From: an uncultured Gammaproteobacteria bacterium
GTDB lineage: Bacteria; Pseudomonadota; Gammaproteobacteria; HK1
Length of the DNA stretch: 64,000 bases
NCBI GenBank assembly: GCA_958295465.1
Contig: OY282353.1
Coordinates: 248,001 to 312,000, forward strand
Direction: 5' to 3'
Shown here: positions 20,334 through 40,183 of the stretch, in pieces
How positions within the stretch are numbered: position 1 is the stretch's first letter
Layout: each line of letters begins with the position of its first letter
Position numbers and translations under genes: made by a program
Notes under the pieces: model-generated
Database searches by the model: none
What the model saw: only the letters and a program-made list of their open reading frames with translations
What the model was told of the DNA's origin: nothing

Positions 20334-20530
20334 CATCTCTCCTGGTCGGCGACCGCGCCAAGTGGACGATAACACAAGCGTCGAATCTTGATGTCCCTTC
20401 TCCCGAAGCCGGATCATGGTCTGACGTGCCGCGGCAACGGGCACATGTTCATGCTGCAATCCTCAGGCAAAGCCTGGCGCCGAACCGGTCTCCGGGGACG
20501 AGCCGGCGCGGCGGCTGGCGCCGATCCGGC

Positions 20531-23500
20531 ATGACCCTCCCCGGCGGTCCCGCGGACAAACTCGGCAACCGCTACGAGCAGTGGTGGACGGTCTCGGAGT
20601 GCGTCCGCATGCTTCGCGGCGACACGAAGGCAATCCGCATCGAGGACCCCGGTGTCGAGAAGGCGGAGTTCGTCGTGACGGTTGGATCTCGGCAGGAGCT
20701 CCATCAGGCGAAACGCAGCCATTCGAACGGCAAGTGGAGTCTCGCCGAGCTCGCCTCCGATGGACTGCTTCAGGCGATCGGAAATGCGTTGGCGAGGAAC
20801 GACGATCGCTTCGTGTTCGTTTCGGGCAGCGAGGCCCGCGAGTTGGCCGAATTGTGCGAGGCGGCGTGCGCCGCGAAGTCCGCGGAAGAATTCGAGCATG
20901 CCTTCCTCGCTACCAACAAGAAGAGGAAGGCATGGTTCGAGAGTCTGTTTCACTGCTACTGGAAGTGCGCCGTCCCGACCGCGATCGAGCGCTTGCGGCG
21001 AATCGGAGTCCGAACGATTGGCGAACGTGATCTCGAAGACAAAGTGCGATGGGGAGTCCAGGCACTCTTTCTCGCAGATTCGAGGCAGGTGCTGTCGGAG
21101 CTTCGGGCGATCGTCGAAGACTCCGTGCACCGCACGATCACCCGTCAGGGTCTCGTCGAAGCACTCGCCCGGCGCGGTTATCAGATGCGGCGCCTGTCCA
21201 GCCCCGAACGTGCGGGTGTCGCCGTGCGAGAAGCAACGGAACAGTACCTGAACGGCGCACGGCGGTGGCTCATCCAGCAAAGACTCGTCCCAAGGGCGGC
21301 GGCGGAAACGTTGCTGTCCCGGCTGGGGGAGACTGCGACCGACAGCGTCGTGACCGGCAAGGCCGGCTCCGGGAAGACGGCCTGCGTCGTCGAAGTCACG
21401 GAGGCTCTGCGCGAACGCGGCCTGCCGGTACTGACGTTCCGCCTCGAACACCTCCAGCTTCTTACGGCATCGACCACCGCGGATCTCGGGCGCCGTCTCG
21501 AGCTCGAAGAATCTCCGGTCCTGGTGCTCGCGGCGGCAGCCGAAGCCGCCGGTCGCCCGGGCGTCCTGATCGTCGATCAACTGGACGCGGTGAGCACCAT
21601 GTCCGGCAGAAGCTCCGGCGCGTTCGACGTCGTCGAGGGGTTGCTTCAGGAGGCCCGTGGCACGCGCGCACGGGCCGTGCTTCACACCGTCGTCGTCTGC
21701 CGGGCCTTCGACTTCGACTGGCAGCACGATCATCGCCTGCGGCAACTCGCGCCGCCCGATTCGGACGCGCGAGTCGAGGTCACGGAGTTCACGGTCGATG
21801 AGGTCAAGACGATCCTGACCGATGCCGGTTTCGACCCGGCGCGGTTCCGGAAACGCCAACTGGCGCTCCTGCGGCTCCCGCAGAACCTCACCCTCTTCCT
21901 CGAAGCCGGCTTCGATACGTCGCGAACACCCGCCTTCGACACGGCAACGCAGCTCTTTGAAGGGTACTGGACCAAGAAGCGGCGGGCGGTCGAAGAACGA
22001 GTCGCGCCCTCGCCGGATCAGTGGAAGGAGGTGATGAAGACCCTCTGCAACGAGATGGCTTCCGCTCAACAACTTTCGGCGCCCCGCGAGACGCTGGACG
22101 ATTTCACGCCTGCATACGTGGAGCAGTTGGCGTCGGAAGGCGTACTCACCTTCGACGGGCGCCGTTACGGATTCGGCCACGAGAGCTTCTTCGACTACTG
22201 CTTCGCCCGGGTGTTCTTCAGGCGGCGGGAATCGCTGGTGTCGTTCCTCAAGGGCTCGGAGCAGCATCTGTTCCGCCGCGCCCAGGTCCGGCAGGTGCTG
22301 GCCTATCTCCGCGACAACCATCCTGCCCGGTATGTGGAGGAGCTTCGCGCCCTGCTCTCGGACGAGAGGATCCGGGCGCATATCAAGGACCTCGCGTTTG
22401 CGCTCCTCGCCGAAGTCACGGACCCCGCCGAGGAAGAATGGTCGGTTTGGCAACAGTGGATCGCGCCGGCGCTCAAGGCCGTCGAGGAAGGCACGCCGAA
22501 CCCGGACAAGCTGTCGGAGATCGCGTGGCGTCGATTCTCCGGATCATCGTCCTGGTTTACCGCTACCGACCGGCACGGCGTGATCGAAGACTGGCTGGCA
22601 TCGGGCAACGACCGGCTCAACGATATGGCGGTGACCTATCTGGGACGCCACCAGCGCTACTCACCGGATCGCGTCGCGGCCCTGCTCGAACCGTATGCCG
22701 ACCGCGGCGGGGAGTGGATGCATCGGCTTCGGTTCATCATGCAATGGGCCGACCACCACACGAGCCGACGCTTCTTCGACCTCTTTCTACGTCTGGTGGA
22801 CAACGGCACGCTCGACGAGGCCCGGGGGCCGATCGCGGAAAACACCACGTTCTGGGACATGCTCCACGACTTGGGCGAGAACCGTCCCGAGTGGATCCCG
22901 GAAGCTATGGCCCATCGGTTCCGGCGACGCCTTGCGGTCGTCCGCGCCAGCGGTAGGGATCTGCGTACACGAGAGTTTTTCGGCTACGAACAATCGGCGG
23001 CAGTGATGTTCAACACGTCCGCAAAGCACGTTCCGGCGGTGTTCGTGGAGCATGTGCTTCCGGTGGTTCTCGAAATCTCGGATTTCGCCCTGACCGGTAG
23101 TACACCGCCGAAACGCGATGCCGCATGGCCGCTTCTCGTGAAAACCGATTATCCGGGGGGTGAAGAGGCGTGCCTCCTGGAGTTGGCCGGAGCACTCGCC
23201 ACCCTCGCTCGCGACGGCACTGCGGATCTACGTGACGTGATCCCCGACTTGCGCCGCCGCGACACCCACGTCGCGAATCACCTCCTGATGGCCCTGTACA
23301 CCGGCGGGGCGGCACGCCATGCGGACGAGGCAGCCGCCCTGCTATGTGACGAACCGTGGCGATTCCATTGCGGATTCTCCGACAGCCCGCACTGGTGCGC
23401 GATGGAAGCGATCCGGGCGGTGGTCCCGCGCTGCACTGCCGAGAACCGAGAGCGGCTTGAAACGGTGATCCTGGGCTACGTCCATCCCTATGAACGCACC

Positions 23501-25075
23501 AGGGACGGATACAGACAGACCGGATGGGCTCGGTTCGCTCTGCTTTCGGCGGTTCCGCCAGAGCTACGCAGCGCCCAAGCGAACGCACACTTCGAGGAGC
23601 TGGAGCGGAAGTTCGGTGAGCCGGAGGGCGAGCCGCGCGGGATGACTGGCGATGGAGATTTAGTCGAGTCACCGATCAAGAAGGACGTCGCGGACAAGAT
23701 GATCGACGACCAGTGGCTGCGGGCAATCGTGAAGTACCACTCGGAGGAGTGGGGACGTTTCTTGCGGGATGACGTTACAGGCGGCGCTCGGCAGTTGGCG
23801 CAAGTCCTGGAAGATCGTGCCAAGGAGGAACCGGAGCGATTCGCCCGCCTCAGCCTGCGATTCCCCGCCGACACGAACCCCGTGTACCTGGAGCGGACGC
23901 TGTCCGCGTTGGAGAAAGCCCCGATCGCGAGCGACCTCAAACTCCAGGTCTGCCGCAAGGCATTTGCAGAGTCACGTGGGTCTTGCGGCCGGTCGATTGC
24001 AGATGTCCTCGGAAACATCGAAGATCCACTCTCGGATGATGCCGTCCAGATGCTTCACCGACTCGCAACGGAGCATGAAGATCCTGACCGCGAAGCGTGG
24101 CAGGAGGACGCTGGCAGCGGCAAACCATACTACGGCGGCGACATCCACTTTAACGGTATCAACACCACGCGCGGGAGAGCGGCCGACGCCATTCGGGATC
24201 TCATCTTTTCCGACGCCACGTACATCGATCGGTTCCGCCCAACCCTAGACCAGATGGTCCGGGATCGGAGCGCGGCCGTGCTTTCATGTGTCGCCGGGCC
24301 TCTCCGGGCCGTTGCCTGCCACGATCCTATGCTTGGCATGTCACTCTTCCAGAGTATGAACTTGTCCGAGGATCTCCTGCTCGTAACACACCACGTATAC
24401 AAATTCATTCGAGGTAGTCTGCACGACAATTTTGCCGAACTGCGGCCGATCGTAGAGCGCATGCTCCGATCGTCCGAACCGGAAGTCCGCGAGGCCGGGG
24501 CACGCTTCGCCTGTATCGCCTACCTGATACACGAGCGTGCTGCGGGTTTCGTTGATGAAGCCTTGCGCGGCGACGCCCGGCATCGCCTCGGCGTGGCACA
24601 GGTCGCCGCCGCCAACATCGCCGCTCCGGAGTATCGAGCCTGGTGCGAAGCAACGCTTGCCGCGTTGTTCGACGACGACGATTCCGAAGTGCGTCGCAAA
24701 GCAGCGTCATGCTTCGACCGATTACAGGGCGAAGCCCTGGACACACACGAAGATCTGATCGCGACGTTCTGTGACAGCAAGGCATTCCAGGAGGATTCCT
24801 TCTCGATTCTTCATACGTTGGAGGAATCTCTGGGGCGGCTGCCGGGAATGACGTGTGATATCTGCGAGAAATTCCTCGATCGCTTCGCCGACGAAGCCCG
24901 GGACATTCGGACCAGACGTGCCGGCGACACGCGCACCGTCGCGAAGCTCGTCTTCCGGACGTACCAGCAACACCAGGACGACGAATGGACGTTCCGATCC
25001 CTGAACCTGATCGATCGTCTCTGCCTGGAGCGGACTCACGATGCCGGACGCGAGTTCGAACAGTTCGAGCGGTAG
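20531..25075 (+). CDS. STAND-type ATPase with probable N-terminal PD-(D/E)xK nuclease (Avs-like)
   Basis: A 1,514-residue multidomain protein with the layout of antiviral STAND sensors. Residues about 1-150 resemble a Cap4/Mrr-type nuclease: GNRYEQWWTV (Glu16), a central acidic strand EKAEFVVTV, and LHQAKRS (Gln59-x-Lys61). The NTPase has Walker A VVTGKAGSGKTACVV (276-283) and Walker B GVLIVDQLDAVS (Asp349), with a winged-helix end FGHESFFDYCFARVFF (548-563). The remaining 950 residues are all-helical, consistent with a solenoid sensor. In known relatives, binding of a phage protein triggers oligomerisation and nuclease action; the trigger here is unknown. The frame is open upstream to 20426 but family-like sequence begins at 20531. 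No strong ribosome site was seen. Confidence 0.78.
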   Translation: MTLPGGPADKLGNRYEQWWTVSECVRMLRGDTKAIRIEDPGVEKAEFVVTVGSRQELHQAKRSHSNGKWSLAELASDGLLQAIGNALARNDDRFVFVSGSEARELAELCEAACAAKSAEEFEHAFLATNKKRKAWFESLFHCYWKCAVPTAIERLRRIGVRTIGERDLEDKVRWGVQALFLADSRQVLSELRAIVEDSVHRTITRQGLVEALARRGYQMRRLSSPERAGVAVREATEQYLNGARRWLIQQRLVPRAAAETLLSRLGETATDSVVTGKAGSGKTACVVEVTEALRERGLPVLTFRLEHLQLLTASTTADLGRRLELEESPVLVLAAAAEAAGRPGVLIVDQLDAVSTMSGRSSGAFDVVEGLLQEARGTRARAVLHTVVVCRAFDFDWQHDHRLRQLAPPDSDARVEVTEFTVDEVKTILTDAGFDPARFRKRQLALLRLPQNLTLFLEAGFDTSRTPAFDTATQLFEGYWTKKRRAVEERVAPSPDQWKEVMKTLCNEMASAQQLSAPRETLDDFTPAYVEQLASEGVLTFDGRRYGFGHESFFDYCFARVFFRRRESLVSFLKGSEQHLFRRAQVRQVLAYLRDNHPARYVEELRALLSDERIRAHIKDLAFALLAEVTDPAEEEWSVWQQWIAPALKAVEEGTPNPDKLSEIAWRRFSGSSSWFTATDRHGVIEDWLASGNDRLNDMAVTYLGRHQRYSPDRVAALLEPYADRGGEWMHRLRFIMQWADHHTSRRFFDLFLRLVDNGTLDEARGPIAENTTFWDMLHDLGENRPEWIPEAMAHRFRRRLAVVRASGRDLRTREFFGYEQSAAVMFNTSAKHVPAVFVEHVLPVVLEISDFALTGSTPPKRDAAWPLLVKTDYPGGEEACLLELAGALATLARDGTADLRDVIPDLRRRDTHVANHLLMALYTGGAARHADEAAALLCDEPWRFHCGFSDSPHWCAMEAIRAVVPRCTAENRERLETVILGYVHPYERTRDGYRQTGWARFALLSAVPPELRSAQANAHFEELERKFGEPEGEPRGMTGDGDLVESPIKKDVADKMIDDQWLRAIVKYHSEEWGRFLRDDVTGGARQLAQVLEDRAKEEPERFARLSLRFPADTNPVYLERTLSALEKAPIASDLKLQVCRKAFAESRGSCGRSIADVLGNIEDPLSDDAVQMLHRLATEHEDPDREAWQEDAGSGKPYYGGDIHFNGINTTRGRAADAIRDLIFSDATYIDRFRPTLDQMVRDRSAAVLSCVAGPLRAVACHDPMLGMSLFQSMNLSEDLLLVTHHVYKFIRGSLHDNFAELRPIVERMLRSSEPEVREAGARFACIAYLIHERAAGFVDEALRGDARHRLGVAQVAAANIAAPEYRAWCEATLAALFDDDDSEVRRKAASCFDRLQGEALDTHEDLIATFCDSKAFQEDSFSILHTLEESLGRLPGMTCDICEKFLDRFADEARDIRTRRAGDTRTVAKLVFRTYQQHQDDEWTFRSLNLIDRLCLERTHDAGREFEQFER

Positions 25076-25458: not shown

Positions 25459-25689
25459 ATGTTCACGTGTTCGGTGTGTGGCGCCGGAGACAGCCGCGAA
25501 GAACTGGTGGAGGAGGTCTTCCGGATCGATGGCAAGTACGTTCTGGTCGATCGCATTCCGGCCACGGTGTGTGTGCGCTGCGGAGAGGAGAGCTTCAGCC
25601 GTGAAACCACGGAGAGAATTCGCCTGATGGTCCACGGACGAACAGAGCCGACGAAGTCCATCGCCCTGAAGGTCTTTGAATTCGCATAG
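25459..25689 (+). CDS. YgiT/MqsA-type zinc-finger antitoxin
   Basis: A 76-residue protein with two Cys-x2-Cys pairs (FTCSVCGAG and TVCVRCGEESFS), the MqsA N-terminal zinc finger. The HTH domain of full-length MqsA is missing, as in the short YgiT-type antitoxins that accompany DUF4258 toxins. An excellent GGAGGTGA site lies within the toxin's last codons. It immediately precedes the broken methyltransferase copy. Confidence 0.85.
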   Translation: MFTCSVCGAGDSREELVEEVFRIDGKYVLVDRIPATVCVRCGEESFSRETTERIRLMVHGRTEPTKSIALKVFEFA

Positions 25690-25692
25690 CAA

Positions 25693-26306
25693 GCGCAAGA
25701 CGACGAGCAGGCTCATGGCGAGAAAACCGAAGAAGTCCAGACAGGTCCGGACGCTGACCCACGAGGAAGCGTCGCGGAAGAACATCCCGACCGCGGAGTA
25801 CCAGTCGGTGATGGCGAAGGACGACCAGAACCCGATCGAGGTCGCTTGGCGGCGCCGCAACCGCGACCTCGACCCGCAACTCGTCTGGCGAGGCAAGGAC
25901 ATGCAGGACTGGTCGAACCTCGTCGTCCAGGCGCCGCCGCTGTTCATTCAGGAGAAGGTCCACCCGAAGGCGCTGATCGACGACCTGATGCGGCGCAGCC
26001 AGGCCGGCGAGCAGGCGAACGATGACCAGCCCGACCTCTTCGCCGACTTCAACGGACTGCCGGACGACAACGCCCGCACGGAGTTCTACCGGCACGACGC
26101 CAACTGGTCGAACCGGATGATCCTCGGCGACAGTCTCCAGGTGATGGCGTCGCTGGCGGAACGGGAGGGGCTGCGGGGCAAGGTGCAGTGCATCTACATC
26201 GACCCGCCCTACGGCATCAAGTTCAACTCCAACTTCCAGTGGTCCACCACCAGCCGGGACGTGAAGGACGGCAAGGCCGACCACATCACCCGCGAGCCGG
26301 AGCAGG
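25693..26306 (+). repeat. 614-bp direct repeat, left copy
   Basis: Matches 28517-29130 over 614 bp without gaps and with roughly a few percent substitutions, mostly at third codon positions. It spans 22 bp of leader plus the first 197 codons of the type III-like methyltransferase gene. It flanks the DUF1828 cassette with its right-hand partner. Confidence 0.92.
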
Positions 26307-26452
26307 CTATCTCGGCAGGCAGGAAACCCGAATCGGAGGCGGTAGATACCGATCGGTTCGAGACCCTTGAGGGCGCCTTGTACTGCTTGATCCGAGACTT
26401 CAATGTGAGCGGGATCAACGTCCCATCTGATCCACAGAGGCCACTTCTGTGA
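25715..26452 (+). pseudogene. Truncated type III-like adenine methyltransferase fused to a foreign tail
   Basis: The first 197 codons equal those of the intact mod gene at 28539, including catalytic motif IV (YIDPPYGIKF). At 26306 homology stops and 48 unrelated codons follow in frame (LEGALYCLIRDFNVSGINVP near the end) before the stop. The SAM-binding motif I and target-recognition domain are absent, so it cannot methylate. The tail looks like the natural C-terminus of another gene, because its stop overlaps the start of the DUF1828 gene. Confidence 0.88.
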
Positions 26453-26586: not shown

Positions 26587-27856
26587 ACTGCTGTCCCACA
26601 AAGTGTGCGTGAAAGAGGACCTGAATCATCCTGTGATGTTATGATTGAGTTTGCGAAAGCAACCAAATCACAGGAGATCCAGGTCCATGGCCCACAATAA
26701 TACCGTGTTGGCGCAATTTCTCAAGTTGGTGCCGAGACATGAATTCGAGAGGGATGCGGCGCAACACCACAAGGGGCGAAAGTTGCGCAAGATGACGCGC
26801 TGGAACCAGTTTGTGGCGATGTTCATGGCGCAGTTGTCGGGGCGGAGCAGCCTGCGCGACATCGTGGCCAATCTGGCTACGCATCCCCACAAGCTCTACC
26901 ACCTGGGGGTCGGCAGCGTAACGAGGTCTTCGTTGGCCCGTGTGAACGAGGAACAACCGTACCGGCTCTATGAGAGGATGTTCGAGCGGGTGTTGGCGCG
27001 CTGTCAGAGGTCGGCGCCGGGTCATGGCTTTCGCTTCAAGAGCAAGCTGTACTCGTTGGATGCGTCCACCGTGGACTTGTGCTTGTCGATGTTTCCGTGG
27101 GCGAAGTTCAAGCAGACGAAGGGTGCGGTGAAGTTGCATGTGGGCATTGACCACGGAGGGTATCTGCCGACGTTTGTGCGCATCACCGACGGCAAGAGGT
27201 CGGACATTGAGGCGGCGAGAGTGTTGGAAGTGCCGAGAGGGAGCATTGTGGTGGCGGACCGTGCGTATGTGGACTTCGCGTGGCTCAAGCACCTGAATAC
27301 ACAGGGAATTTCTCTTGTCACCCGCATGAAGAAGGGGATCAGGTATGCGGTTCGGGAACGTCGTGCGGTGAAGCGAAGGCAGGGCCTCACCAGCGATCAA
27401 ATCATCGTGTTGACGAGTACGCATGGTGCGAAGAGGTATCCTGGGGCGTTGCGCCGAATCGGATACCGGGACGCTGAGACGGGCAAACACTACGTCTTCT
27501 TGACGAACAACTTCGACTTGTCGGCGAAGACCATTGCGGACATTTACAAGGCAAGATGGCAGATAGAGTTGTTTTTCAAGTGGATCAAGCAACATCTGAA
27601 GGTGAAGAGTTTTGTCGGTACATCGCGCAATGCAGTATTGACGCAGCTCTGGATTGCGATGTGCGTATATCTGTTGCTTTCGTACATCAAGTTCGTCAAC
27701 CGATCAAGTTGGAGTTTGTACGAGATTTTGCGGGTGCTCCAACTGAACCTGTTCGATCGTCGCCCAATGATGGATCTCCTGGAGACACAATCAACACCCC
27801 CAGACCCGCCGCCGCAACTCAGGCTGAAATTCACCTGAACTTTATGGGACAGCAGT
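26587..27856 (+). mobile_element. IS4-family insertion sequence, complete, 1,270 bp
   Basis: Ends are 17-bp imperfect terminal inverted repeats (ACTGCTGTCCCACAAAG on the left; ACTGCTGTCCCATAAAG read inward on the right, one mismatch). It contains one full transposase gene and is flanked by an 11-bp target duplication, so it looks intact and possibly active. GC content is visibly lower than in the host genes around it. Confidence 0.93.
26687..27838 (+). CDS. IS4-family DDE transposase
   Basis: A 383-residue transposase starting NNTVLAQFLKLVPRHEFERD, with the family's N-terminal domain then the DDE core: first Asp in LYSLDASTVDL, second in VVADRAYVDF, and the IS4 YREK signature in YKARWQIELFFKWIKQHLK (Tyr, Arg, Glu and Lys at the correct spacing). 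An AGGAGATCCAGGTCC leader precedes the ATG at 26687. All catalytic residues are present. Confidence 0.95.
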   Translation: MAHNNTVLAQFLKLVPRHEFERDAAQHHKGRKLRKMTRWNQFVAMFMAQLSGRSSLRDIVANLATHPHKLYHLGVGSVTRSSLARVNEEQPYRLYERMFERVLARCQRSAPGHGFRFKSKLYSLDASTVDLCLSMFPWAKFKQTKGAVKLHVGIDHGGYLPTFVRITDGKRSDIEAARVLEVPRGSIVVADRAYVDFAWLKHLNTQGISLVTRMKKGIRYAVRERRAVKRRQGLTSDQIIVLTSTHGAKRYPGALRRIGYRDAETGKHYVFLTNNFDLSAKTIADIYKARWQIELFFKWIKQHLKVKSFVGTSRNAVLTQLWIAMCVYLLLSYIKFVNRSSWSLYEILRVLQLNLFDRRPMMDLLETQSTPPDPPPQLRLKFT

Positions 27857-28516: not shown

Positions 28517-29130
28517 GCGCAAGACGACGAGCAGGCTCATGGCGAGAAAACCGAAGAAGTCCAGACAGGTCCGGACGCTGACCCACGAGGAAGCGTCGCG
28601 GAAGAACATCCCGACCGCGGAGTACCAGTCGGTGATGGCGAAGGACGACCAGAACCCGATCGAGGTCGCCTGGCGGCGCCGCAACCGCGACCTCGACCCG
28701 CAGCTCGTCTGGCGGGGCAAGGACATGGAAGACTGGTCGAACCTCGTCGTCCAGGCCCCGCCGCTGTTCATCCAGGAGAAGGTCCACCCGAAGGCGCTGA
28801 TCGACGACCTGATGCGTCGCAGCCAAGCCGGCGAGCAGGCGAACGACGACCAGCCCGACCTCTTCGCCGACTTCAACGGCCTGCCGGACGACAACGCCCG
28901 CACGGAGTTCTACCGCCACGACGCCAACTGGTCGAACCGGATGATCCTCGGCGACAGCCTGCAAGTGATGGCGTCGCTGGCGGAACGTGAGGGGTTGCGG
29001 GGCAAGGTGCAGTGCATCTACATCGACCCGCCCTACGGCATCAAGTTCAACTCCAACTTCCAGTGGTCCACCACCAGCCGGGACGTGAAGGACGGCAAGG
29101 CCGACCACATCACCCGCGAGCCGGAGCAGG
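28517..29130 (+). repeat. 614-bp direct repeat, right copy
   Basis: Partner of 25693-26306. It covers the leader and the first 197 codons of the intact methyltransferase gene. The gap between the copies (26307-28516) holds the DUF1828 cassette, so recombination between the repeats could delete it and restore a single mod gene behind the toxin-antitoxin pair. Confidence 0.92.
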
Positions 29131-31589
29131 TCAAGGCGTTCCGGGACACGTGGCGGGACGGGATCCACTCATACCTGACGTATCTGCGGGACCGGCTGAC
29201 CGTGGCGCGGGACTTGCTGGCGGAGAGTGGCTCGGTGTTCGTGCAGATCGGGGATGAGAACGTTCATTTAGTGCGAAACTTGATGGATGAGGTATTGGGA
29301 CGTGATAACGCGATTTCGCAGATTGGGTTTCGTACAACAACTGGCCGTGCCGGGGGAACGCTTGCGGGAGCACTGAACTATATCCTTTGGTATGCCAAGA
29401 ATACTGATTCCCTGAAGTACCGAACTTTGTTTGCGGACAAGGCTCATGCAGCCTCTACTGCCATCGTATATGATCGAGTGCGTCATTCAGGAACTGGTAT
29501 GTCAAGGCGATTGACAGCAGAAGAACGAATAGATCACAGTCAGATACCTGATGAATTCCATCTCTTCCGACCAGATACCCTTACCAGTTCCAGATCTGCT
29601 GGAGAGGGAGATGTTCGTCAATTTCCATTCCACGGCCATATTTATGGTCCTCGGAAAGGGACTTTCAAGACTAACAAAACAGGATTGAATCGTTTAGCTA
29701 GATCTGACCGGCTTTGGCCGACAATTTCTCGGACGATACAATACATTCGATATTTTGATGATTTTCGTGCGATCCCGATCGCCAATATTTGGATGGACAC
29801 CGGCACAGGATCATTCACAGACGACAAGATCTATGTCGTCCAGACCAACGCCAAAGTCATAGAACGTTGCCTGTTGATGGCCACCGACCCAGGCGACCTC
29901 GTCCTCGACCCTACCTGCGGATCCGGCACCACCGCCTACGTCGCCGAGCAGTGGGGCCGGCGCTGGATCACCATCGACACCTCCCGCGTCGCCCTCGCGC
30001 TGGCTCGCGCCCGCGTCATGGGCGCCCGCTATCCCTACTACCTCCTCGCGGACAGCCCGGAAGGGCAGCGGAAGGAAGCCGAGATCGCCGGCAAGGCCCC
30101 GTCCGAAGCGCCCGCCCACGGCAACGTCCGCCACGGCTTCGTCTACGAACGGGTCCCGCACATCACCCTGAAGTCCATCGCCAACAACGCCGAGATCGAC
30201 GTGATCTGGGAGAAGCACCAGCAGATGCTGGAACCCCTGCGCCGGAAGCTCAACGAGGCGACGGAGACGAGCCGGGAGGAGTGGGAGATCCCCCGCCACG
30301 CCGAAGACCCGTGGAACCCGGCGGCACGAGCGCTCTTTTCCAGGCTCCGGGCGGAACTCGAAAAAGAACAGCCCGACGCCCCACGCGCGCAACGGCACCC
30401 TTCCTCCACCTTCAAAATCGGCGACGGACCGACGCCCGACACCCCGCGGGTACAACGGCTTCTGCGCGACCTCAACGCGAACCTCGGGCGCAGCTACACC
30501 CTCGACACGCTCCCGCCCCGTCCCGCCGAGCCCTGGCCGGAGGCGCCCGCTGCCCTGCACGCCCAATGGTGGGAGCAGCGCATCGCCCGGCAGCAGGAGA
30601 TCGACGCCGCCATCGCCGTCAGGGCCGACTACGAATACCTCTACGACAAGCCATACGAAGACAGGAACGTCGTGCGCGTCGCGGGGCCGTTCACCGTCGA
30701 CAGCCTGTCGCCGCACCGCACGCTCGCGGTCGACGAGGACGACGAGCTGATCGACCGCGCGGCCGAACCCCGCACCGCCTACGGCGAGGCGGCCGATTTC
30801 GCCTCGATGATCCTGGAACAACTCAAGACCGCCGGCGTGCAGCAGGCGCACAAGGACGACCGGATCACCTTCAACGCCCTGATCCCTTGGCCCGGCCGCC
30901 GGATCTGCGGCGAAGGCCGGTACGTGCAGGGCGACGAGGGCCGGGAACAGCGCGCCGGCATCTTCATCGGCCCCGAGTTCGGCACCGTCTCCCGGCCCGA
31001 CCTCGTCGCCGCCGCCCGGGAAGCGGGCGACGCCGATTTCGACGTGCTCATCGCCTGCGCGTTCAACTACGACGCCCATTCCTCGGAGTTCGACAAGCTC
31101 GGCCGCATCCCGGTGCTCAAGGCCCGGATGAACGCCGACCTCCACATGGCGGAGGACCTGAAGAACACCGGCAAGGGCAACCTCTTCGTCATCTTCGGCG
31201 AGCCCGACATCGACGTCCTCCCGGCCGAGGGCGACGACACCGGACGTCTCCAGGTCAGGATAAACGGCGTGGACGTCTTCCTCCCCAACACCGGCGAGAT
31301 ACGAAGCGACGGCCCCGAGGGCATCGCCTGCTGGTTCATCGACACCGACTACAACGAGGAGAGCTTCTTCGTCCGCCACGCCTACTTCCTCGGCGCGAAC
31401 GACCCCTACAAGGCGCTCAGGACGACCCTGAAAGCCGAGGTCGACCCCGACGCCTGGGCCACGCTGCACAGCGACCTGTCGCGTCCCTTCGACAAACCGG
31501 CCTCCGGCCGCATCGCCGTCAAGGTCATCAACCACCTGGGCGATGAAGTGATGAAGGTGTTTCAAGTACCGGCGGGAAACAGTCTTTGA
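28539..31589 (+). CDS. Type III-like site-specific adenine-N6 DNA methyltransferase (Mod)
   Basis: A 1,016-residue beta-class methyltransferase: catalytic motif IV IYIDPPYGIKFNSN (DPPY 163-166) comes before SAM-binding motif I LDPTCGSGTTAYVAEQWG (457-465). The region between them (about 245-440) should hold the target-recognition domain, and its DNA is markedly AT-richer than the flanks. The C-terminal 500 residues include LIPWPGRRICGEGRYVQGD and DVLIACAFNYDAHSSEFDKL, typical of the large Mod partners of BPTD_3080-type Res proteins. It should protect host DNA from the restriction subunit at 16827-19991. The first 197 codons are duplicated upstream. Confidence 0.9.
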   Translation: MARKPKKSRQVRTLTHEEASRKNIPTAEYQSVMAKDDQNPIEVAWRRRNRDLDPQLVWRGKDMEDWSNLVVQAPPLFIQEKVHPKALIDDLMRRSQAGEQANDDQPDLFADFNGLPDDNARTEFYRHDANWSNRMILGDSLQVMASLAEREGLRGKVQCIYIDPPYGIKFNSNFQWSTTSRDVKDGKADHITREPEQVKAFRDTWRDGIHSYLTYLRDRLTVARDLLAESGSVFVQIGDENVHLVRNLMDEVLGRDNAISQIGFRTTTGRAGGTLAGALNYILWYAKNTDSLKYRTLFADKAHAASTAIVYDRVRHSGTGMSRRLTAEERIDHSQIPDEFHLFRPDTLTSSRSAGEGDVRQFPFHGHIYGPRKGTFKTNKTGLNRLARSDRLWPTISRTIQYIRYFDDFRAIPIANIWMDTGTGSFTDDKIYVVQTNAKVIERCLLMATDPGDLVLDPTCGSGTTAYVAEQWGRRWITIDTSRVALALARARVMGARYPYYLLADSPEGQRKEAEIAGKAPSEAPAHGNVRHGFVYERVPHITLKSIANNAEIDVIWEKHQQMLEPLRRKLNEATETSREEWEIPRHAEDPWNPAARALFSRLRAELEKEQPDAPRAQRHPSSTFKIGDGPTPDTPRVQRLLRDLNANLGRSYTLDTLPPRPAEPWPEAPAALHAQWWEQRIARQQEIDAAIAVRADYEYLYDKPYEDRNVVRVAGPFTVDSLSPHRTLAVDEDDELIDRAAEPRTAYGEAADFASMILEQLKTAGVQQAHKDDRITFNALIPWPGRRICGEGRYVQGDEGREQRAGIFIGPEFGTVSRPDLVAAAREAGDADFDVLIACAFNYDAHSSEFDKLGRIPVLKARMNADLHMAEDLKNTGKGNLFVIFGEPDIDVLPAEGDDTGRLQVRINGVDVFLPNTGEIRSDGPEGIACWFIDTDYNEESFFVRHAYFLGANDPYKALRTTLKAEVDPDAWATLHSDLSRPFDKPASGRIAVKVINHLGDEVMKVFQVPAGNSL

Positions 31590-31656
31590 GAAGGCACAAA
31601 AGGGGAAGTAAAGCTCAAAGCACAAGAAGGCAACGGGATTTCTTGGAGGATTGCGT

Positions 31657-32139
31657 GTGATCGACATCGTGGACAGCCGAAAGCGGAGCGAGTTGATGGC
31701 CAACATCCGCGGCAGGGACACTGCTCCCGAGCGGGCGGTGCGCAGGATTGCCCATCGGATGGGACTACGCTTCCGGCTCTGCCGGAAGGACCTGCCGGGC
31801 CGTCCCGATCTGGTGTTGCCCAAGTACCGGTTGGCTGTCTTCGTTCATGGATGTTTCTGGCACCAGCATGAAGGGTGTCAATATGCCCATGTACCCAAGA
31901 CGCGGACAGAGTATTGGAAGGACAAGTTCGCACGGAATATGGTACGTGACAATGATAACGAGGAATCATTGCGATACCTCGGCTGGAATGTGGTCGTAAT
32001 ATGGGAATGCGAAGTTGGTGACGAAGAAGGAGTGAGGGAAAGGCTCAGGGCGGCCATACGTTCAAATAAGTCCAACCCGGACCAGGAAAAACCCGAACAC
32101 CACCAAGGTGGCCCTGCGGAAGGCAGCGGTGCGAAATGA
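31657..32139 (+). CDS. vsr: Very-short-patch mismatch endonuclease (Vsr)
   Basis: Nicks T:G mismatches made by deamination of methylated cytosine. The 160-residue protein has the full Vsr signature: VDSRKRSELMANIRGRDTAP, the catalytic Asp in GRPDLVLPKYRLAVFVHGCF, WHQHEGCQYAHVPKTR with zinc-binding His/Cys residues, and YWKDKFARNMVRD. GTG at 31657 lies six bases after GGAGGA; a TTG at 31651 is too close to it. Its stop overlaps the dcm start (ATGA), so the two are co-translated. Base composition is lower in GC than the upstream mod 3' end. Confidence 0.93.
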   Translation: MIDIVDSRKRSELMANIRGRDTAPERAVRRIAHRMGLRFRLCRKDLPGRPDLVLPKYRLAVFVHGCFWHQHEGCQYAHVPKTRTEYWKDKFARNMVRDNDNEESLRYLGWNVVVIWECEVGDEEGVRERLRAAIRSNKSNPDQEKPEHHQGGPAEGSGAK

Positions 32140-33548
32140 AGCACGCACGCGGAAGAGCCGCCAAGGGAAGTGGCGAGGCGCGGGCAACGTCCTGTAAACA
32201 AGGGGCGGCGGAGCCGGCACCGGTATTCGTGGACGCCTACGCGGGTTGTGGCGGGTTGAGCCTCGGGCTCATGCGTGCAGGGTGGAAGGGGCTGTTTGCC
32301 ATAGAGAAAGATCTATGTGCATTCGAGACACTTTCTGCAAACCTCTCCTACAACTGGCCAAGAGGGATAGAGCAGAAACCTTGGGATATTCATGACCTGT
32401 TGTCGACGCGGAGGAACGCTTTAGGGAATCTCATCGGAAAAGTAGACCTGCTGGCAGGCGGGCCGCCATGCCAAGGGTTTTCCCATGCCGGGCGGCGTAG
32501 GCCGGATGACCCCAGAAACCAGTTGTTCAAGGCATATCTTGAACTGGTGGAAGTATTGCAACCCCGCCTGCTGCTCATAGAAAATGTCCGGGGTTTCACG
32601 TGCGATTTCAAGGTTCCGGGGGAAGATCCGATCGAAAATTTCGCTGAATCCTTGCAACAGTGGCTACAGGTACATCATGATGTATCATATAAAGTTGTAC
32701 ATGCAGAAGATTTCGGAATACCGCAGACACGCCCTAGATATTTCCTGATTGCAGCGTTGAAGAATTTAGGTGTCAGAAAAGGGATTGAGGCAGTCTTCGA
32801 TGACCTCGAACAGCAAGTCGGTAGCTTCTTGGGAGAGCGCCAGCTTCCACGCCGGCCTACGGCAAGGGATGCTATCAGCGATCTTGAAGTAGACCGGAAC
32901 GGGACAGCACCTTCGAGGGACAGCAAGGGATTTGAGGAGATCTCATACAAAGGAGGACCGATTACGGCATACCAAAGATTGATGCGCGGAGAATGCGAGG
33001 AATCGCCAACCGATACAAGGCTGGCCCGCCACCGCCCAGACATCCGCGAGCGCTTCGAAGCAATCATCAACACATGCCGCGAGGAAGGGCGGCTCAAGAT
33101 GACGATTCCTGCCGAAATCCGGGAGGCGCACGGCATGAAGAAAATGGTCACACGGGTACTCGATCCCTTGGATACCGCTCCCACGATAACAAGCCTGCCC
33201 GACGACCTTCTACACTACTCGGAGCCACGTATACTGACGGTACGGGAGAACGCGCGGCTTCAATCATTTCCGGATTGGTTCAAATTCAAAGGGAAATACA
33301 CCACAGGAGGAAACCGCCGCCGGAACGAAGTGCCGCGTTTCACCCAAGTGGCGAATGCAGTCCCGCCGTTGCTGGCAGAACAGCTAGGATTGGTCCTTCT
33401 CAGAATCGTTCGTGGATTGTGCAGGTGCGAATTCGTCACAAATAGCCCTACAAACATTATCCAGCGCGCTCCTGTGCTTTCGGAGCGATGCGCGAAATCG
33501 TGCCATCCAATCATCATCGATAACGATGCTTCCATTTTCACCGAATGA
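32136..33548 (+). CDS. dcm: C5-cytosine DNA methyltransferase
   Basis: A 470-residue 5-methylcytosine methyltransferase with motifs in canonical order: I VDAYAGCGGLSLGLMRAGW, IV GGPPCQGFSHAG (nucleophilic Cys), VI LLIENVRGF, VIII FGIPQTRPRYFLIA, IX LTVRENARLQSFPDWF, X FTQVANAVPPLLAEQLG. The target-recognition region lies between VIII and IX. The last 55 residues extend past motif X and are encoded opposite the end of the convergent receiver gene. It is coupled to vsr. No classical restriction endonuclease gene is adjacent; the GHKL and receiver genes occupy that place. Confidence 0.93.
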   Translation: MKHARGRAAKGSGEARATSCKQGAAEPAPVFVDAYAGCGGLSLGLMRAGWKGLFAIEKDLCAFETLSANLSYNWPRGIEQKPWDIHDLLSTRRNALGNLIGKVDLLAGGPPCQGFSHAGRRRPDDPRNQLFKAYLELVEVLQPRLLLIENVRGFTCDFKVPGEDPIENFAESLQQWLQVHHDVSYKVVHAEDFGIPQTRPRYFLIAALKNLGVRKGIEAVFDDLEQQVGSFLGERQLPRRPTARDAISDLEVDRNGTAPSRDSKGFEEISYKGGPITAYQRLMRGECEESPTDTRLARHRPDIRERFEAIINTCREEGRLKMTIPAEIREAHGMKKMVTRVLDPLDTAPTITSLPDDLLHYSEPRILTVRENARLQSFPDWFKFKGKYTTGGNRRRNEVPRFTQVANAVPPLLAEQLGLVLLRIVRGLCRCEFVTNSPTNIIQRAPVLSERCAKSCHPIIIDNDASIFTE

Positions 33549-34364
33549 ACGGAGGATGGCACTACCATATTGATCAACAGCTTGTTCCTTGGCATGGGCA
33601 AGAATGTTGCGGTTCTTCAGGATTTCAGCTTGAAACGAAGACAATGTTTGTAGATCGCGCTGAGGTTTATCAGGTAATTTTTTCGCAATACGTCGAATAG
33701 AACGATACTTATGGTCTGAAGTGAATGATCCACGGGAAACAAGGGAAGAAAGGTCGTGCGCATCAAGATCCGATGGGATCTTGCCAAGCATATCCTTTAG
33801 ACTCCTTCTTAATGCCGCGATGGTATTATTGACGACATCAAGAGGCAAAAGATGGGAAGCGAAAGCATCCGCGAGGGCTTGCTCCATAACCACATCCATA
33901 TCGGCAACTTCAGCCATTGCCAAACCGCGCATATGAGTAATGTCGACGACCTTACCTATAATTGTATCTGCAAGGCCGGTCAGGGCGATATCGAGTTCAG
34001 TCCGTGTAGCAACAAAAACTCCTTCTACTTCCTGGTCTGTAAGAAGCCGAAGCAATTGAGGTCGGTGCATTGAGGAGTAGAAGATCATGTCGGTATATGG
34101 TAGCGCATCCCGGAGACGGGCAGCAGCCACAGCACCTGTGTCATCTCGCTGCTGAAGATCAAAATCGACCATAACGAGATCGTATGGTCTGCCATGTGCC
34201 TGGGATTGCACAAAATCCTGCAAAGCCTGCGCCGACAGATCAGGAGGCAGCGTACGATGAAGATCGAAACCCTTATCTCGGAGATGATCCTCCAGAAGGC
34301 CAATGGCCGACTCAGCGGCATCGGGCTGATCGTCAACTACAAGGAGTTGGAAAGAAAGTTTCAT
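33384..34364 (-). CDS. Receiver-domain (response-regulator-like) protein of the vsr-dcm module
   Basis: A 326-residue protein with an N-terminal receiver-like domain: acidic pair in LLVVDDQPDAAES (Asp11, Asp12), likely phospho-acceptor Asp67 in YDLVMVDFDLQQRDDTG, and a Ser in MIFYSSMHR at the switch position. The conserved Lys that normally follows (expected near residue 118, EGVFVATR) is missing, so phosphorylation chemistry may be altered. The C-terminal 200 residues are helical without a recognised DNA-binding or enzyme domain. Its ATG overlaps the stop of the GHKL gene (ATGA). Its 3' end overlaps dcm by 165 bp on the opposite strand. Confidence 0.78.
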   Translation of the reverse strand: MKLSFQLLVVDDQPDAAESAIGLLEDHLRDKGFDLHRTLPPDLSAQALQDFVQSQAHGRPYDLVMVDFDLQQRDDTGAVAAARLRDALPYTDMIFYSSMHRPQLLRLLTDQEVEGVFVATRTELDIALTGLADTIIGKVVDITHMRGLAMAEVADMDVVMEQALADAFASHLLPLDVVNNTIAALRRSLKDMLGKIPSDLDAHDLSSLVSRGSFTSDHKYRSIRRIAKKLPDKPQRDLQTLSSFQAEILKNRNILAHAKEQAVDQYGSAILRSFGENGSIVIDDDWMARFRASLRKHRSALDNVCRAICDEFAPAQSTNDSEKDQS

Positions 34365-36679
34365 GCTGGCACCTGCAAAATCAACTGTGCGCCAGATAAT
34401 TCGTCGGAATATGGATTAGGTAGGAGTTCCACGAGGCCGCCCAGCCGGCCCTCAACCACCTGCTTGACGTGAAAGAGTCCAAGGCCGGAACCATCCGTGG
34501 TGGTGACACCCTTCTCGAAAGCTCGTTCTAGGGGTGCAAAGGATGCATGCCAACCTATTCCGTCATCTGCAACTGTGATCGAAAGGCGAGGCTTCGGCCT
34601 CTGGCCAACCCGTAGGATAAACAAGGTGTTTCGAGCACGGGCCTTGGCCGCGTTCGTGACAAGATTGTCGATGACGATACCAACTTCAATGGGGCGGAAA
34701 GCACGTTGGAACCTCTGCCCGTCGGGTTGGATATGCACGGAAAGCCCACTCGGAGCCCAAAGCGTAGAGATCGTTGTAATATAGTCGCGGATGTAGACGC
34801 ACAGATCACCTTCGATTTGGGCAGATTGTTGCTTATACCCTCCTTTCGTAGCAAACCGGGAAGCAGTAAGTATCTGGCTGTTGCGGAAGGAAACATGCTC
34901 CAGAAAATCGATCCATTGATCTAGCGGCACTGTAGTGCCTTTGCGTAGTCTGCGCATCATGCGCTTGATCCCGATATGCACATCAGATGCGTGCATCAGT
35001 ATCTGGTGGTGGAGGTTCAAGATGGTATCTTGATCCAGGGATGAAGCAGCTATCAGGAATTGGTTGCGTTCCTTTTCTTGTTCATATTTGGATTCGGTCA
35101 GTACGGCCCGGGATTCGGCGCGGCGCTCAGCCGCCCGAGCCTGTTGCTCAGCGTCCTGCAACTCCTTGATTCGGGCCTTTGCGTGGGAAACACGTGAAAG
35201 AAGTTCCCTATTCCCGGTTTTTTCGGCAAGAAGTTCGAGTGCGGCGAGGGAAGATTCAAAGGCGTTTGCCCTCTCGTCGACAATTCTGACCAGATCCAGG
35301 TTGTACTCATGAAGCTCCACACCGGGGGTCCCAGCCAAACGGGAGACAAGCTGGGTGATGCGAACACTACTGTCGTCAAGCTCCATTCGGGAAGTATCAT
35401 CACTTATTTGATCTTCCGGATCTTTCCACGTGATGTCCACAACATAACGCTCAAGACGGCGAATGCATTTTTCCAGAAGGCAGGTAACTAGCTGATCAAC
35501 TTGGGGAGTATTAATGAGGCCTTGATCGCGGCTTGTTGCTTCATCAAACCCTTCGGCACCGGCAATAGAGACCCGGCCTATCAGGTCGCGGCTGCCAAGG
35601 TACCTTCGTACTCCTTGCTGTTTGCGACGGGTCAAGCCAAAGAAATCGTCATATTCTTGACCTATAGGAAACACGCGGAAGCCATTACGGAAAAGGAATA
35701 TGGAGCCGAATTGCACGCTAGGCAAACCCATACGACGGGCGAAAAACATTTTGGCGCTTCGGTTCAAGAAATAAATGGTGGCCGAAAACTCAGACCGTAT
35801 CAGATAAGAATAAGGATTATCTTCCCCAATATGATAAATCAACTCTCCGCGATCTTCGAGCCGGGAATCGATTACCTTCCCATCGTCGATGAGCTTCACG
35901 TGTATGGTAGTTGTCCTTCCTTTTAGAATTTCTAGAATAGGATTTTCGATTCTTCCGTTCACTACTAATTTTTGATCTTTATCATCAGGCAGATTTTTAT
36001 TGTGATCAGTATCTACTTTATCGTCATCCAGTTGTTCCGGGGCAATAATTTCAATTTGAAAATCGGACGAATCTTCTTCAAAAGGATTGATGAGCTTCAT
36101 CAGTTCTCGCTTCAACTGTTGAAGCTCCACACGGCCCCAATTCGAACGTAACTTACTGATGGTGAGAACAGTTCCGTGCCCTGGCCTAGGCTGAGTATTG
36201 GGATCGGGAAATCGAGGGGCTTGAGACAAATCGATTTCAATATCGCCAAACTCCTCTTTGGCATCCTGTTCATAACGAGTCCAATCTATGTTCAATATTT
36301 GAACGCTGTTCCCTTGGGATCGGGAACTGAGCTGGAGCTGACTCCCAAGTCGATCGCAAGAAAAACGGCCAACACCTTTAGCCCCAGCATATGCGCGGCC
36401 ACGCTGTGAAATATCATCCCGGTAGTTCGCGTCCTCCGTCCCCTCCCGTTTGGCGGAGTAAGCGACGAAGAGCCATTTGTCGAGTATGTCGGCCTCCGAC
36501 ATCCCTTTTCCATCGTCGGTGATGACAATCCTCTCCTCTTCAAAAAGGATCCGGACAGAAGTCGCGTGTGCATCGAAGGAATTCTTGACCAGCTCGAATA
36601 CGGCAACAAAGTCACTGGTGATAAGATCCCGGCCGATCAGATCCTTCAGTCCTGTGCTGACTCTGAATGATCGCAACAT
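34361..36679 (-). CDS. Double-GHKL ATPase / histidine-kinase-like sensor of the vsr-dcm module
   Basis: A 772-residue protein with two GHKL ATP-binding modules. The N-terminal one is Hsp90/MORC-like: FELVKNSFDAHAT (N-box 29-37), VITDDGKGMS (55-60), and GAKGVGRFSCDRLG (99-107). The middle holds a long coiled coil (about 470-560, Glu/Arg/Ala-rich) and a DHp-like helix with HHQILMHASDVHIGIKR. The C-terminal module is histidine-kinase-like: VIDNLVTNAAKA (671-680), VADDGIGW (703-710), GSGLGLFHVKQVVEG (730 on). A GGAGG site precedes the ATG. Together with the coupled receiver gene it looks like a sensor-response pair embedded in a DNA-modification locus; related MORC-type GHKL proteins are known in R-M contexts. 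Confidence 0.8.
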   Translation of the reverse strand: MLRSFRVSTGLKDLIGRDLITSDFVAVFELVKNSFDAHATSVRILFEEERIVITDDGKGMSEADILDKWLFVAYSAKREGTEDANYRDDISQRGRAYAGAKGVGRFSCDRLGSQLQLSSRSQGNSVQILNIDWTRYEQDAKEEFGDIEIDLSQAPRFPDPNTQPRPGHGTVLTISKLRSNWGRVELQQLKRELMKLINPFEEDSSDFQIEIIAPEQLDDDKVDTDHNKNLPDDKDQKLVVNGRIENPILEILKGRTTTIHVKLIDDGKVIDSRLEDRGELIYHIGEDNPYSYLIRSEFSATIYFLNRSAKMFFARRMGLPSVQFGSIFLFRNGFRVFPIGQEYDDFFGLTRRKQQGVRRYLGSRDLIGRVSIAGAEGFDEATSRDQGLINTPQVDQLVTCLLEKCIRRLERYVVDITWKDPEDQISDDTSRMELDDSSVRITQLVSRLAGTPGVELHEYNLDLVRIVDERANAFESSLAALELLAEKTGNRELLSRVSHAKARIKELQDAEQQARAAERRAESRAVLTESKYEQEKERNQFLIAASSLDQDTILNLHHQILMHASDVHIGIKRMMRRLRKGTTVPLDQWIDFLEHVSFRNSQILTASRFATKGGYKQQSAQIEGDLCVYIRDYITTISTLWAPSGLSVHIQPDGQRFQRAFRPIEVGIVIDNLVTNAAKARARNTLFILRVGQRPKPRLSITVADDGIGWHASFAPLERAFEKGVTTTDGSGLGLFHVKQVVEGRLGGLVELLPNPYSDELSGAQLILQVPA

Positions 36680-37960: not shown

Positions 37961-38713
37961 ATGGCGAGCACGGCGGAACACCTTGTCGCGGACCCGGAAG
38001 TCGACGCGCTGCTCCATTGGATGGAGCGGGCGACCGCCGGACGGCTCGGAGACGCGGAGTGGGCATTCGGGGGCGGGTCGGCCCTTGCCGCGCACTGGAA
38101 GCACCGCCGGAGCACCGACCTCACCGTCTTCGCCTCCTACGGCGCATACCTGGACTGGACCGCACACGGCGGACCGCAGGAACTGCTCGAACGACTGGCA
38201 GGAACGTATCTGCATTCGAAAGCGCGCGGGGTGGACGCGGCCGGCGATGCGGCGGTGAAGTTCAGCGGACTCGAACTGCACGGGAACGCGCTGGGCGCCA
38301 TCGACGTGGTCGGAATGAACCCGATGTGCGGGCCGCTCGAAGGACGGTACCGCGCAGGGCAGACCGCACGGCCGGTCGTGCCCGTATCGACCATCCTGGC
38401 CGGGAAGCTGCTCGGACGCGGACCCATGGCGCTCCCAAGGGACGTGTACGACCTGGCGGTCGCGGTGAAACGCGCCCCGGACGACGTGAAGACCGCCATC
38501 GAACGGACACCGCTCCCGGTACTCGCGACGTGCCTGTCGAGATGGGAAGACATGCACTGGAGCAGGGCAGGGACGGACGGAAGGATCCTCGATCCCACCG
38601 ACGACGACGCCCTGCGCCGGGCGCCGGAGATCGTCGTGGACGCCGTGGAACAGTGGATCCCGGGGAGCACGGCGCAGCCGAACGGGACGGGCGCGAGGAG
38701 GCCGCAACGATGA
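37961..38713 (+). CDS. AbiEii-like nucleotidyltransferase-fold protein (putative toxin)
   Basis: A 250-residue protein with the minimal nucleotidyltransferase start WAFGGGSALAAHWKHRRSTD, the GG-S and R-x-S-x-D pattern of AbiEii/AbiGii toxins. The second metal-binding Asp of the usual D-x-D is Thr here (STDLTVF), which could weaken or change activity. Further on, VVPVSTILAGKLLGRGPMALP and RDVYDLAVAVKRAP match the helical half of the family. A GGAG site precedes the ATG at 37961. Its stop overlaps the next gene's start (ATGA), as expected for a coupled toxin-antitoxin-type pair. The module fills the space between ligK and ligJ fragments. Confidence 0.7.
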   Translation: MASTAEHLVADPEVDALLHWMERATAGRLGDAEWAFGGGSALAAHWKHRRSTDLTVFASYGAYLDWTAHGGPQELLERLAGTYLHSKARGVDAAGDAAVKFSGLELHGNALGAIDVVGMNPMCGPLEGRYRAGQTARPVVPVSTILAGKLLGRGPMALPRDVYDLAVAVKRAPDDVKTAIERTPLPVLATCLSRWEDMHWSRAGTDGRILDPTDDDALRRAPEIVVDAVEQWIPGSTAQPNGTGARRPQR

Positions 38714-39910: not shown

Positions 39911-40183
39911 ATGACCGGTGCCGTTTCGATAAGCCGCCTGTCAGGTCGCACGAGCCAAGTGATCAGGGAAGTGGCGGAGACAGGCAAGGTGACGTTCGTC
40001 ACCAGACGCGGCCGGCCCGTGGCGGTTATCGCACCTGTAGGCTCGGACAGAGCAGACGATCTTCCGGACCATGTGCTGGCCAACACGCCGGAGTACGTGG
40101 CTTCGATGCACCAGGCTGACGAAGATCTTGCCACCGGACGGACCAACTCCCTGGCTGGTGCAATGGCCGACATGGACGGTTGA
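39911..40183 (+). CDS. Phd/YefM-family antitoxin
   Basis: A 90-residue antitoxin: VSISRLSGRTSQVIREVAET, then KVTFVTRRGRPVAVIAPVGS, the N-terminal DNA-binding fold of Phd/YefM, followed by an acidic, flexible C-terminus that would wrap the toxin (residues 50-90). It would repress its own promoter. The RelE/ParE-like toxin gene that follows at 40278 carries a stop codon inside, so this antitoxin may survive without an active partner. Confidence 0.88.
   Translation: MTGAVSISRLSGRTSQVIREVAETGKVTFVTRRGRPVAVIAPVGSDRADDLPDHVLANTPEYVASMHQADEDLATGRTNSLAGAMADMDG

Follow-up and report, generated by a model that had tools for sequence, protein, structure and literature searches.

A cytosine methylase locus linked to a double-GHKL kinase and a receiver protein with a predicted HEPN ribonuclease domain

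The 64-kb stretch of DNA analysed here (part of contig OY282353.1 of an uncultured Gammaproteobacteria bacterium; hereafter the window) carries a block of four genes at positions 31657-36679. The genes vsr and dcm, which overlap by ATGA on the plus strand, converge on the genes for a double-GHKL sensor kinase and a receiver protein, which likewise overlap by ATGA on the minus strand (Table 1). The catalytic motifs of all four proteins are intact, and the block has a guanine-plus-cytosine (GC) content of 0.518 compared with 0.657 for the window. An earlier interpretation based on the letters alone (the sequence-only reading) had described the four genes, their convergent pairs, the two ATGA overlaps and the low GC content, and open reading frame (ORF) coordinates, domain searches and base composition bear out all of these; it omitted the tail-to-tail overlap of the dcm and receiver genes. 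The vsr gene starts at GTG 31657, which is preceded by a well-spaced GGAGG, and an in-frame TTG lies upstream at 31651. In Dcm, the motifs PPCQ, ENV, QTRPR and ANAVP are all intact.

Table 1. Genes and features of the four-gene block in window coordinates
Feature	Position	Strand	Evidence
vsr	31657..32139	+	Pfam PF03852 100 bits; NCBIfam TIGR00632 136 bits (cut-off 98); motifs GRPD, HGCFWHQH
dcm, DNA (cytosine-5) methyltransferase, 470 aa (amino acids)	32136..33548	+	Pfam PF00145 (DNA_methylase) 166 bits; TIGR00675 above cut-off
Receiver protein with predicted HEPN domain, 326 aa	33384..34364	-	AlphaFold2 (AF2) model, fold match, conservation, HEPN comparisons
Double-GHKL sensor kinase, 772 aa	34361..36679	-	Pfam PF13589 (HATPase_c_3), PF02518 (HATPase_c)
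RNILAH (Rx4H) codons, receiver residues 252-257	33594..33611	-	computed from ORF start 34364
dcm/receiver gene tail-to-tail overlap, 165 bp	33384..33548	both strands	ORF coordinates

A sensor kinase and a receiver with a predicted ribonuclease output

The kinase combines a paraMORC-like GHKL module (residues ~1-400; HATPase_c_3, 79 bits, residues 24-147), a coiled region with the H-box LHHQ (H558) and a histidine-kinase ATPase domain (HATPase_c, 67 bits, residues 666-771), in agreement with the two ATPase domains and His helix recognised earlier. The N-terminal ATP site (E29, N33, D36, D55, G57, G59, G102, G104) is conserved in 85 of 86 aligned rows, the remaining row being gapped, and H558 as well as N676, D705, G707, G730, G732 and G734 are present in 86/86. 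The hallmarks of a histidine kinase, i.e. the phosphoacceptor His and the N, G1, F and G2 boxes, are thus all found. The N-terminal ~400 residues resemble the GHKL modules of the MORC/paraMORC and BbrUII/HgiDII types, and the NCBIfam model restrict_BbrUII matches residues 24-211 well under its cut-off. Because of this resemblance, we propose that the kinase acts as a DNA-sensing clamp. With its intact GHKL motifs and its restriction-modification (R-M) neighbourhood, the N-terminus can be classed from its sequence as paraMORC-like at a general level rather than as a member of a particular paraMORC family.

Residues 1-139 of the partner protein adopt a receiver fold in the AF2 model of the full protein (mean predicted local distance difference test score, pLDDT, 83), which matches the ComE REC domain with a Z score of 14.2. 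The acidic pair (D11, D12), the phosphoacceptor D67 and S97 are in place, and R121 stands where a Lys is expected, so that four of the five hallmarks of a receiver domain are found. Among 80 full-length receivers, D67 is present in 80, the Ser97 switch residue in 79 and D12 in 68 (N in 12), and where the canonical Lys is expected, 76 have Arg and 4 have Lys. The sequence-only reading had rightly noted the acidic pair, D67 and the missing Lys; since Arg occupies the position in 76/80 homologues, the loss is a family trait.

The C-terminal ~190 residues contain a helical, HEPN-like region (residues ~140-315) with the motif R252-N-I-L-A-H257. Despite a median pairwise identity of only ~20%, four positions are invariant in the C-terminal half of the family, R146, G147, R252 and H257; R252 and H257 occur in 80/80 homologues and N253 in 76/80. 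HEPN RNases are marked by an Rx4H signature, which the pattern R252-N-x-L/F/M-A/G-H257 represents, and genuine HEPN_RiboL-PSP proteins from other genomes carry RNxIAH at a similar place. Pfam HEPN_RiboL-PSP (PF18735) matches four of 72 C-terminal domains over the motif (best 27.2 bits, cut-off 28.4), while other homologues match the Swt1, Apea, MAE_28990 and LA2681 HEPN models. When the 72 domains were aligned by hhalign with 19 HEPN_RiboL-PSP members, the match reached E=1.3e-5 over 108 columns, compared with 0.36-0.48 for controls (reversed profiles and a coiled-coil region). With the motif masked, E was still 0.005, and the helix around R146 therefore adds to the match. The AF2 model of the C-terminal domain alone has a pLDDT of 90.7, and in a structural second look the HEPN RNase Csm6 ranked first (Z 7.3, root-mean-square deviation 3.5, 116 residues aligned), with generic bundles at 6.7-7.0 and HepT and another HEPN entry, also in the top rows, at 6.2-6.6; it was in this second look only that HEPN entries stood out. 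With the full receiver model, Foldseek rankings were swamped by receivers. An hmmsearch of PDB sequences with the C-terminal profile returned helical noise only, and the output domain gave no DNA-binding match. In total, the HEPN domain of the receiver is strongly supported, and we consider the HEPN assignment very likely, with ribonuclease activity predicted from it. The sequence-only reading had proposed that the kinase/receiver pair carries out or triggers an effector step; it is to be corrected in that the receiver bears its own probable effector, a HEPN RNase, which that reading had missed.

Conservation and context of the gene cluster

To survey relatives, 84,980 prokaryote species were scanned with the GHKL protein, a query that leaves neighbour counts unbiased towards the neighbours; the best 80 of 364 relatives were kept. 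A scan of viral contigs yielded six more loci for the kinase query and two for the receiver query, with some overlap between them. All counts below refer to 85 non-redundant loci with usable neighbourhoods; only one of them, L030, was obtained through the receiver query, and it is a prophage copy of L050. The hosts span at least 13 phylum-level groups. A receiver-family gene immediately follows the kinase gene in 85/85 loci and a C5 methylase gene is adjacent in 81/85; of the other four loci, one ends with its contig, one has the methylase ~3 kb away and two (L048 and L113) show none. In comparison, vsr is found in 13/85 loci that are scattered on the GHKL tree with 12 changes. Of the four-gene neighbourhood proposed earlier, the linkage of kinase, receiver and methylase genes thus stands with dcm as a core gene, and vsr is an optional companion and not part of the core. 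The sensor/receiver pair thereby withstands the refuting condition that the sequence-only reading had set on rarity of the neighbourhood.

The methylase gene lies tail to tail downstream in 41 loci, codirectionally upstream in 34, codirectionally downstream in 5 and divergently upstream in 1. Because its placement or orientation changed at least six times on the GHKL tree, the methylase gene has time and again either stayed linked or become linked anew. Protein distances are correlated between kinase and receiver (Mantel r 0.85), kinase and Dcm (0.68) and receiver and Dcm (0.67), with 0 of 2000 permutations as high; these correlations stem partly from shared vertical descent. The receiver gene overlaps the end of dcm in 38 of 40 convergent relatives, by at least 50 bp in 26 of them (median 58 bp, up to 165 bp). 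Such a tail-to-tail overlap could couple methylase and predicted toxin by antisense.

No further gene is common. The largest cluster of neighbours, integrase-like by sequence, occurs in 7/85 loci, and another occurs in 6/85, its scanned member, in L102, being an HhH-GPD glycosylase. Apart from the optional Vsr, no conserved restriction enzyme or nuclease gene was found among the neighbours of the 85 relatives. The methylase at the window locus has no dedicated restriction endonuclease of the kind that marks a type II R-M system, and none is conserved in the relatives; the sensor/receiver pair stands in its place, as the sequence-only reading had it. In tblastn searches against plasmids, the window receiver had no match, and those of the kinase were limited to distant relatives of the paraMORC type, mostly accompanied by other methylases.

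Several relatives vary around the receiver gene. A gene for a HAD_PNKP-like polynucleotide 3'-phosphatase follows it in several loci (L035:9836-10279, L036:2697-3140, L037:11407-11847 and L091:11418-11876; PF25109 121.7 bits in L035), and a phosphatase is suggestive next to an RNase. The Bacteroidota loci L100, L111 and L113 are receiver-only, also after their short receivers were checked for a frame-shifted HEPN domain. Two other Bacteroidota loci (L094:11043-11720 and L107:11024-11692) encode a receiver with a different C-terminus followed by similar genes of ~225 aa that share 'FMGHGSxQKLSG', possibly a swapped effector. In Gluconacetobacter diazotrophicus (L097:10298-12443), an insertion sequence-like element splits the receiver-HEPN gene and the kinase and dcm genes remain open, which by sequence amounts to a natural knock-out of the predicted toxin.

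Five loci (L032-L036) adjoin the portal gene of P2-like prophages, and in L034 and L035 the system lies between a relative of replication gene A (gpA) and the portal gene. This is exactly the cos-proximal site that in P2-like phages is a hotspot holding antiviral systems (PMC9122126). The placement favours a role in defence.

The neighbourhood in the window is itself an island of defence and mobile genes. A type III R-M methylase gene (28539-31589) lies just before the block and the helicase/nuclease gene of this system at 16827-19991, and nearby are an AbiEii-like gene (37961-38713), a Phd-type antitoxin gene (39911-40183) and an IS4 transposase gene (26645-27838). Two copies of the N-terminal region of the type III Mod gene are present (25676-26452 and 28539-31589), with the IS4-type transposase gene and a DUF1828 gene between them, which points to a rearranged or partly duplicated type III system. 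A gene for a 1549-aa AAA-ATPase/HEAT-repeat protein (20426-25075), possibly a further defence gene, separates Res from Mod in this system and is followed by a DUF4258 gene. The same chromosome contains two more systems of C5 methylase, double-GHKL kinase and receiver, L157 (5388000-5398500) and L158 (4564000-4574500), the latter also with a vsr-like gene; their receivers (529 and 597 aa) match Response_reg_2 (PF19192). Three parallel systems of this general kind are therefore found in one genome.

A model for methylation-guarded growth arrest and its alternatives

Combining the gene linkage and the intact catalytic and phosphotransfer residues, which are observed, with the receiver fold and the HEPN domain, which are predicted, we suggest that in the modification system encoded here, an RNA toxin under the control of a phosphorelay substitutes for the restriction endonuclease and acts in abortive infection or addiction, a reading to which we give even chances. 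More specifically, and with confidence falling somewhat short of even, such loci may form a class of abortive-infection systems guarded by modification. Instead of a restriction enzyme, these would use a two-component phosphorelay to read the methylation state of DNA, with a MORC-like DNA-sensing ATPase at its input and a receiver-switched HEPN RNase at its output. We infer the direction of signalling, its trigger, the sensing of methylation, the RNA target and the role in phage defence as follows: (i) the C5 methylase would mark the cell's own DNA; (ii) the soluble double-GHKL protein would monitor DNA through an N-terminal ATPase clamp of MORC/MutL-like type, the likeliest cues being absent methylation or DNA related to infection; (iii) upon the trigger, the C-terminal kinase would autophosphorylate H558 and the phosphoryl group would pass to D67 of the receiver; (iv) the phosphorylated receiver would turn on the fused HEPN RNase; and (v) the RNase would cut RNA so that growth halts before the phage multiplies. 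Vsr, or elsewhere the DNA glycosylase, would merely repair T:G mismatches arising from 5-methylcytosine. If this model is true, the oldest mark for distinguishing self from non-self feeds a signalling cascade whose outcome is arrested growth and not DNA cutting, and the use of a MORC-like ATPase as a sensor bears on the roles of MORC proteins in other organisms.

Several observations weigh against this model. The window receiver itself matches no HEPN model, its direct Pfam, NCBIfam and PADLOC searches being empty, and the homologue matches fall below the curated cut-off, so that the HEPN signal emerged only from the collected family. Foldseek on the C-terminal model alone ranked generic bundles and gave no confident HEPN match, and a Z score of ~7 can be reached by unrelated helical bundles (7.0 for gp41 bundles and nearly as high for artificial five-helix bundles). 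Because 5/85 relatives have no recognisable HEPN domain, the output can vary. Arg in place of Lys could affect how the receiver switches, methylation is indicated as the trigger solely by the linkage to dcm, and the use of the best 80 of 364 genome loci over-represents the window's own branch.

Alternatively, the locus could serve addiction and not defence as a selfish three-part toxin-antitoxin system in which loss of dcm dilutes methylation, the kinase activates the HEPN RNase and segregants are killed, with phage protection as a side effect at most. The patchy distribution, low GC content and mobile context fit this explanation, as do the near-obligatory methylase and the recurring tail-to-tail overlap of the dcm and toxin genes, which would tie their fates. 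Against it stand the loci that recur at the hotspot for antiviral genes in P2-like prophages and a two-protein phosphorelay that is elaborate for simple addiction; we regard it as unlikely, noting that the addiction and defence readings are compatible with each other. The trigger might also be something other than methylation: the kinase would respond to a phage-specific DNA structure, protein or nucleotide change by activating the HEPN RNase, with Dcm either keeping the clamp off host DNA or acting independently. L048 and L113 keep kinase and receiver without a recognisable C5 methylase within reach, and some relatives pair with N6-type instead of C5 methylases; the C5 methylase linkage in 81/85 loci and the correlated divergence argue in the opposite direction and make this explanation quite unlikely.

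That the pair is a regulatory two-component system controlling an R-M or methylation gene was proposed in 2021 for HEF_HK/Response_reg_2 relatives (PMC8011034). For the window's branch we consider this improbable given an output domain without a DNA-binding match and the RNase-type motif in 80/80 homologues. Finally, R-M operons can contain MORC/paraMORC proteins together with Vsr-type nucleases (PMC2292703) and vsr overlaps dcm here, which is what would be expected if the GHKL clamp and Vsr together nicked unmethylated DNA in a variant of type II restriction. The scattered occurrence of Vsr in only 13/85 relatives, on account of which we reject it as the effector, makes this highly improbable; moreover, six loci have the neighbour cluster represented in L102 by an HhH-GPD glycosylase, and the companion therefore looks like a repair enzyme.

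Relation to known systems

The sequence-only reading had taken a complete sensor/receiver pair in the position of the restriction enzyme to be an undescribed defence system. This needs correction. In 2021, Bellieny-Rabelo et al. described that a paraMORC-type double-HATPase kinase occurs in association with a divergent receiver and a C5 methylase, and frequently with Vsr, and suggested a function in R-M regulation (PMC8011034); two-component defence, too, has a precedent in Detocs (PMC11249213). The 2021 text identifies no effector and does not mention HEPN, RNase or phage (PMC8011034). The window system resembles HEF_HK/Response_reg_2 (PF19191, PF19192) in the kinase layout of N-terminal HATPase_c_3, DHp-like His helix and C-terminal HATPase_c as well as in the adjacent receiver and C5 methylase genes and the frequent Vsr. 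However, neither window protein matches PF19191 or PF19192 at E 0.01, nor does the receiver at E 10 or the kinase at E 1, and the best score observed in a relative is 15.2 bits against a cut-off of 27. Moreover, the H-box is LHHQ in the window kinase whereas the 2021 paper describes His followed by Glu/Asp (PMC8011034), and the Response_reg_2 proteins that were examined have greater lengths and a longer, unrelated C-terminus in place of the HEPN-like one. Canonical Response_reg_2 proteins, when tested, gave no HEPN signal. In L148-L156, their large C-terminal domain (residues ~200-600) contains an invariant C-x4-C-D motif (C403, C408 and D409 in L148) and is a candidate for a different effector.

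The paraMORC GHKL ATPases of R-M systems (Iyer et al. 2008, PMC2292703) and the GHKL restriction enzymes of the BbrUII/HgiDII type share with the window kinase the N-terminal GHKL module and the R-M neighbourhood; they differ in that the C-terminus of the window kinase is a histidine-kinase ATPase and not a nuclease or TIR domain, and in that a separate protein, receiver-HEPN, would act as effector. HEPN toxins are known near R-M systems and include PrrC/RloC and a Ymh-HEPN domain fused to paraMORC (Anantharaman et al. 2013, PMC3710099). There too, a HEPN RNase near a modification system is probably restrained and released on infection; in the window system, control would be exerted by a receiver and its partner kinase and not by a fused ABC or GHKL ATPase, and no restriction enzyme accompanies the C5 methylase. 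A term search of the 2013 paper found no receiver-HEPN fusion (PMC3710099), and no description of a receiver-HEPN effector was found in the open-access literature. HATPase and REC are among the domains that a machine-learning study of 2026 gives for its predicted, as yet unvalidated systems, and the text of that study does not tell whether these are linked to the present family (PMC13092281).

In Detocs, a defensive two-component system whose best-described effector, a PNP, cleaves ATP, a kinase activates a receiver-linked effector (PMC11249213). The likeness to the window system is one of antiphage logic only, and the window system differs by its DNA methylase and probable HEPN effector. Thus, the association of kinase, receiver and C5 methylase has been known since 2021 without a proposed effector, whereas the HEPN output of the window's branch appears undescribed, and this probable output turns the linkage into a testable case of phosphorylation-switched RNA cleavage.

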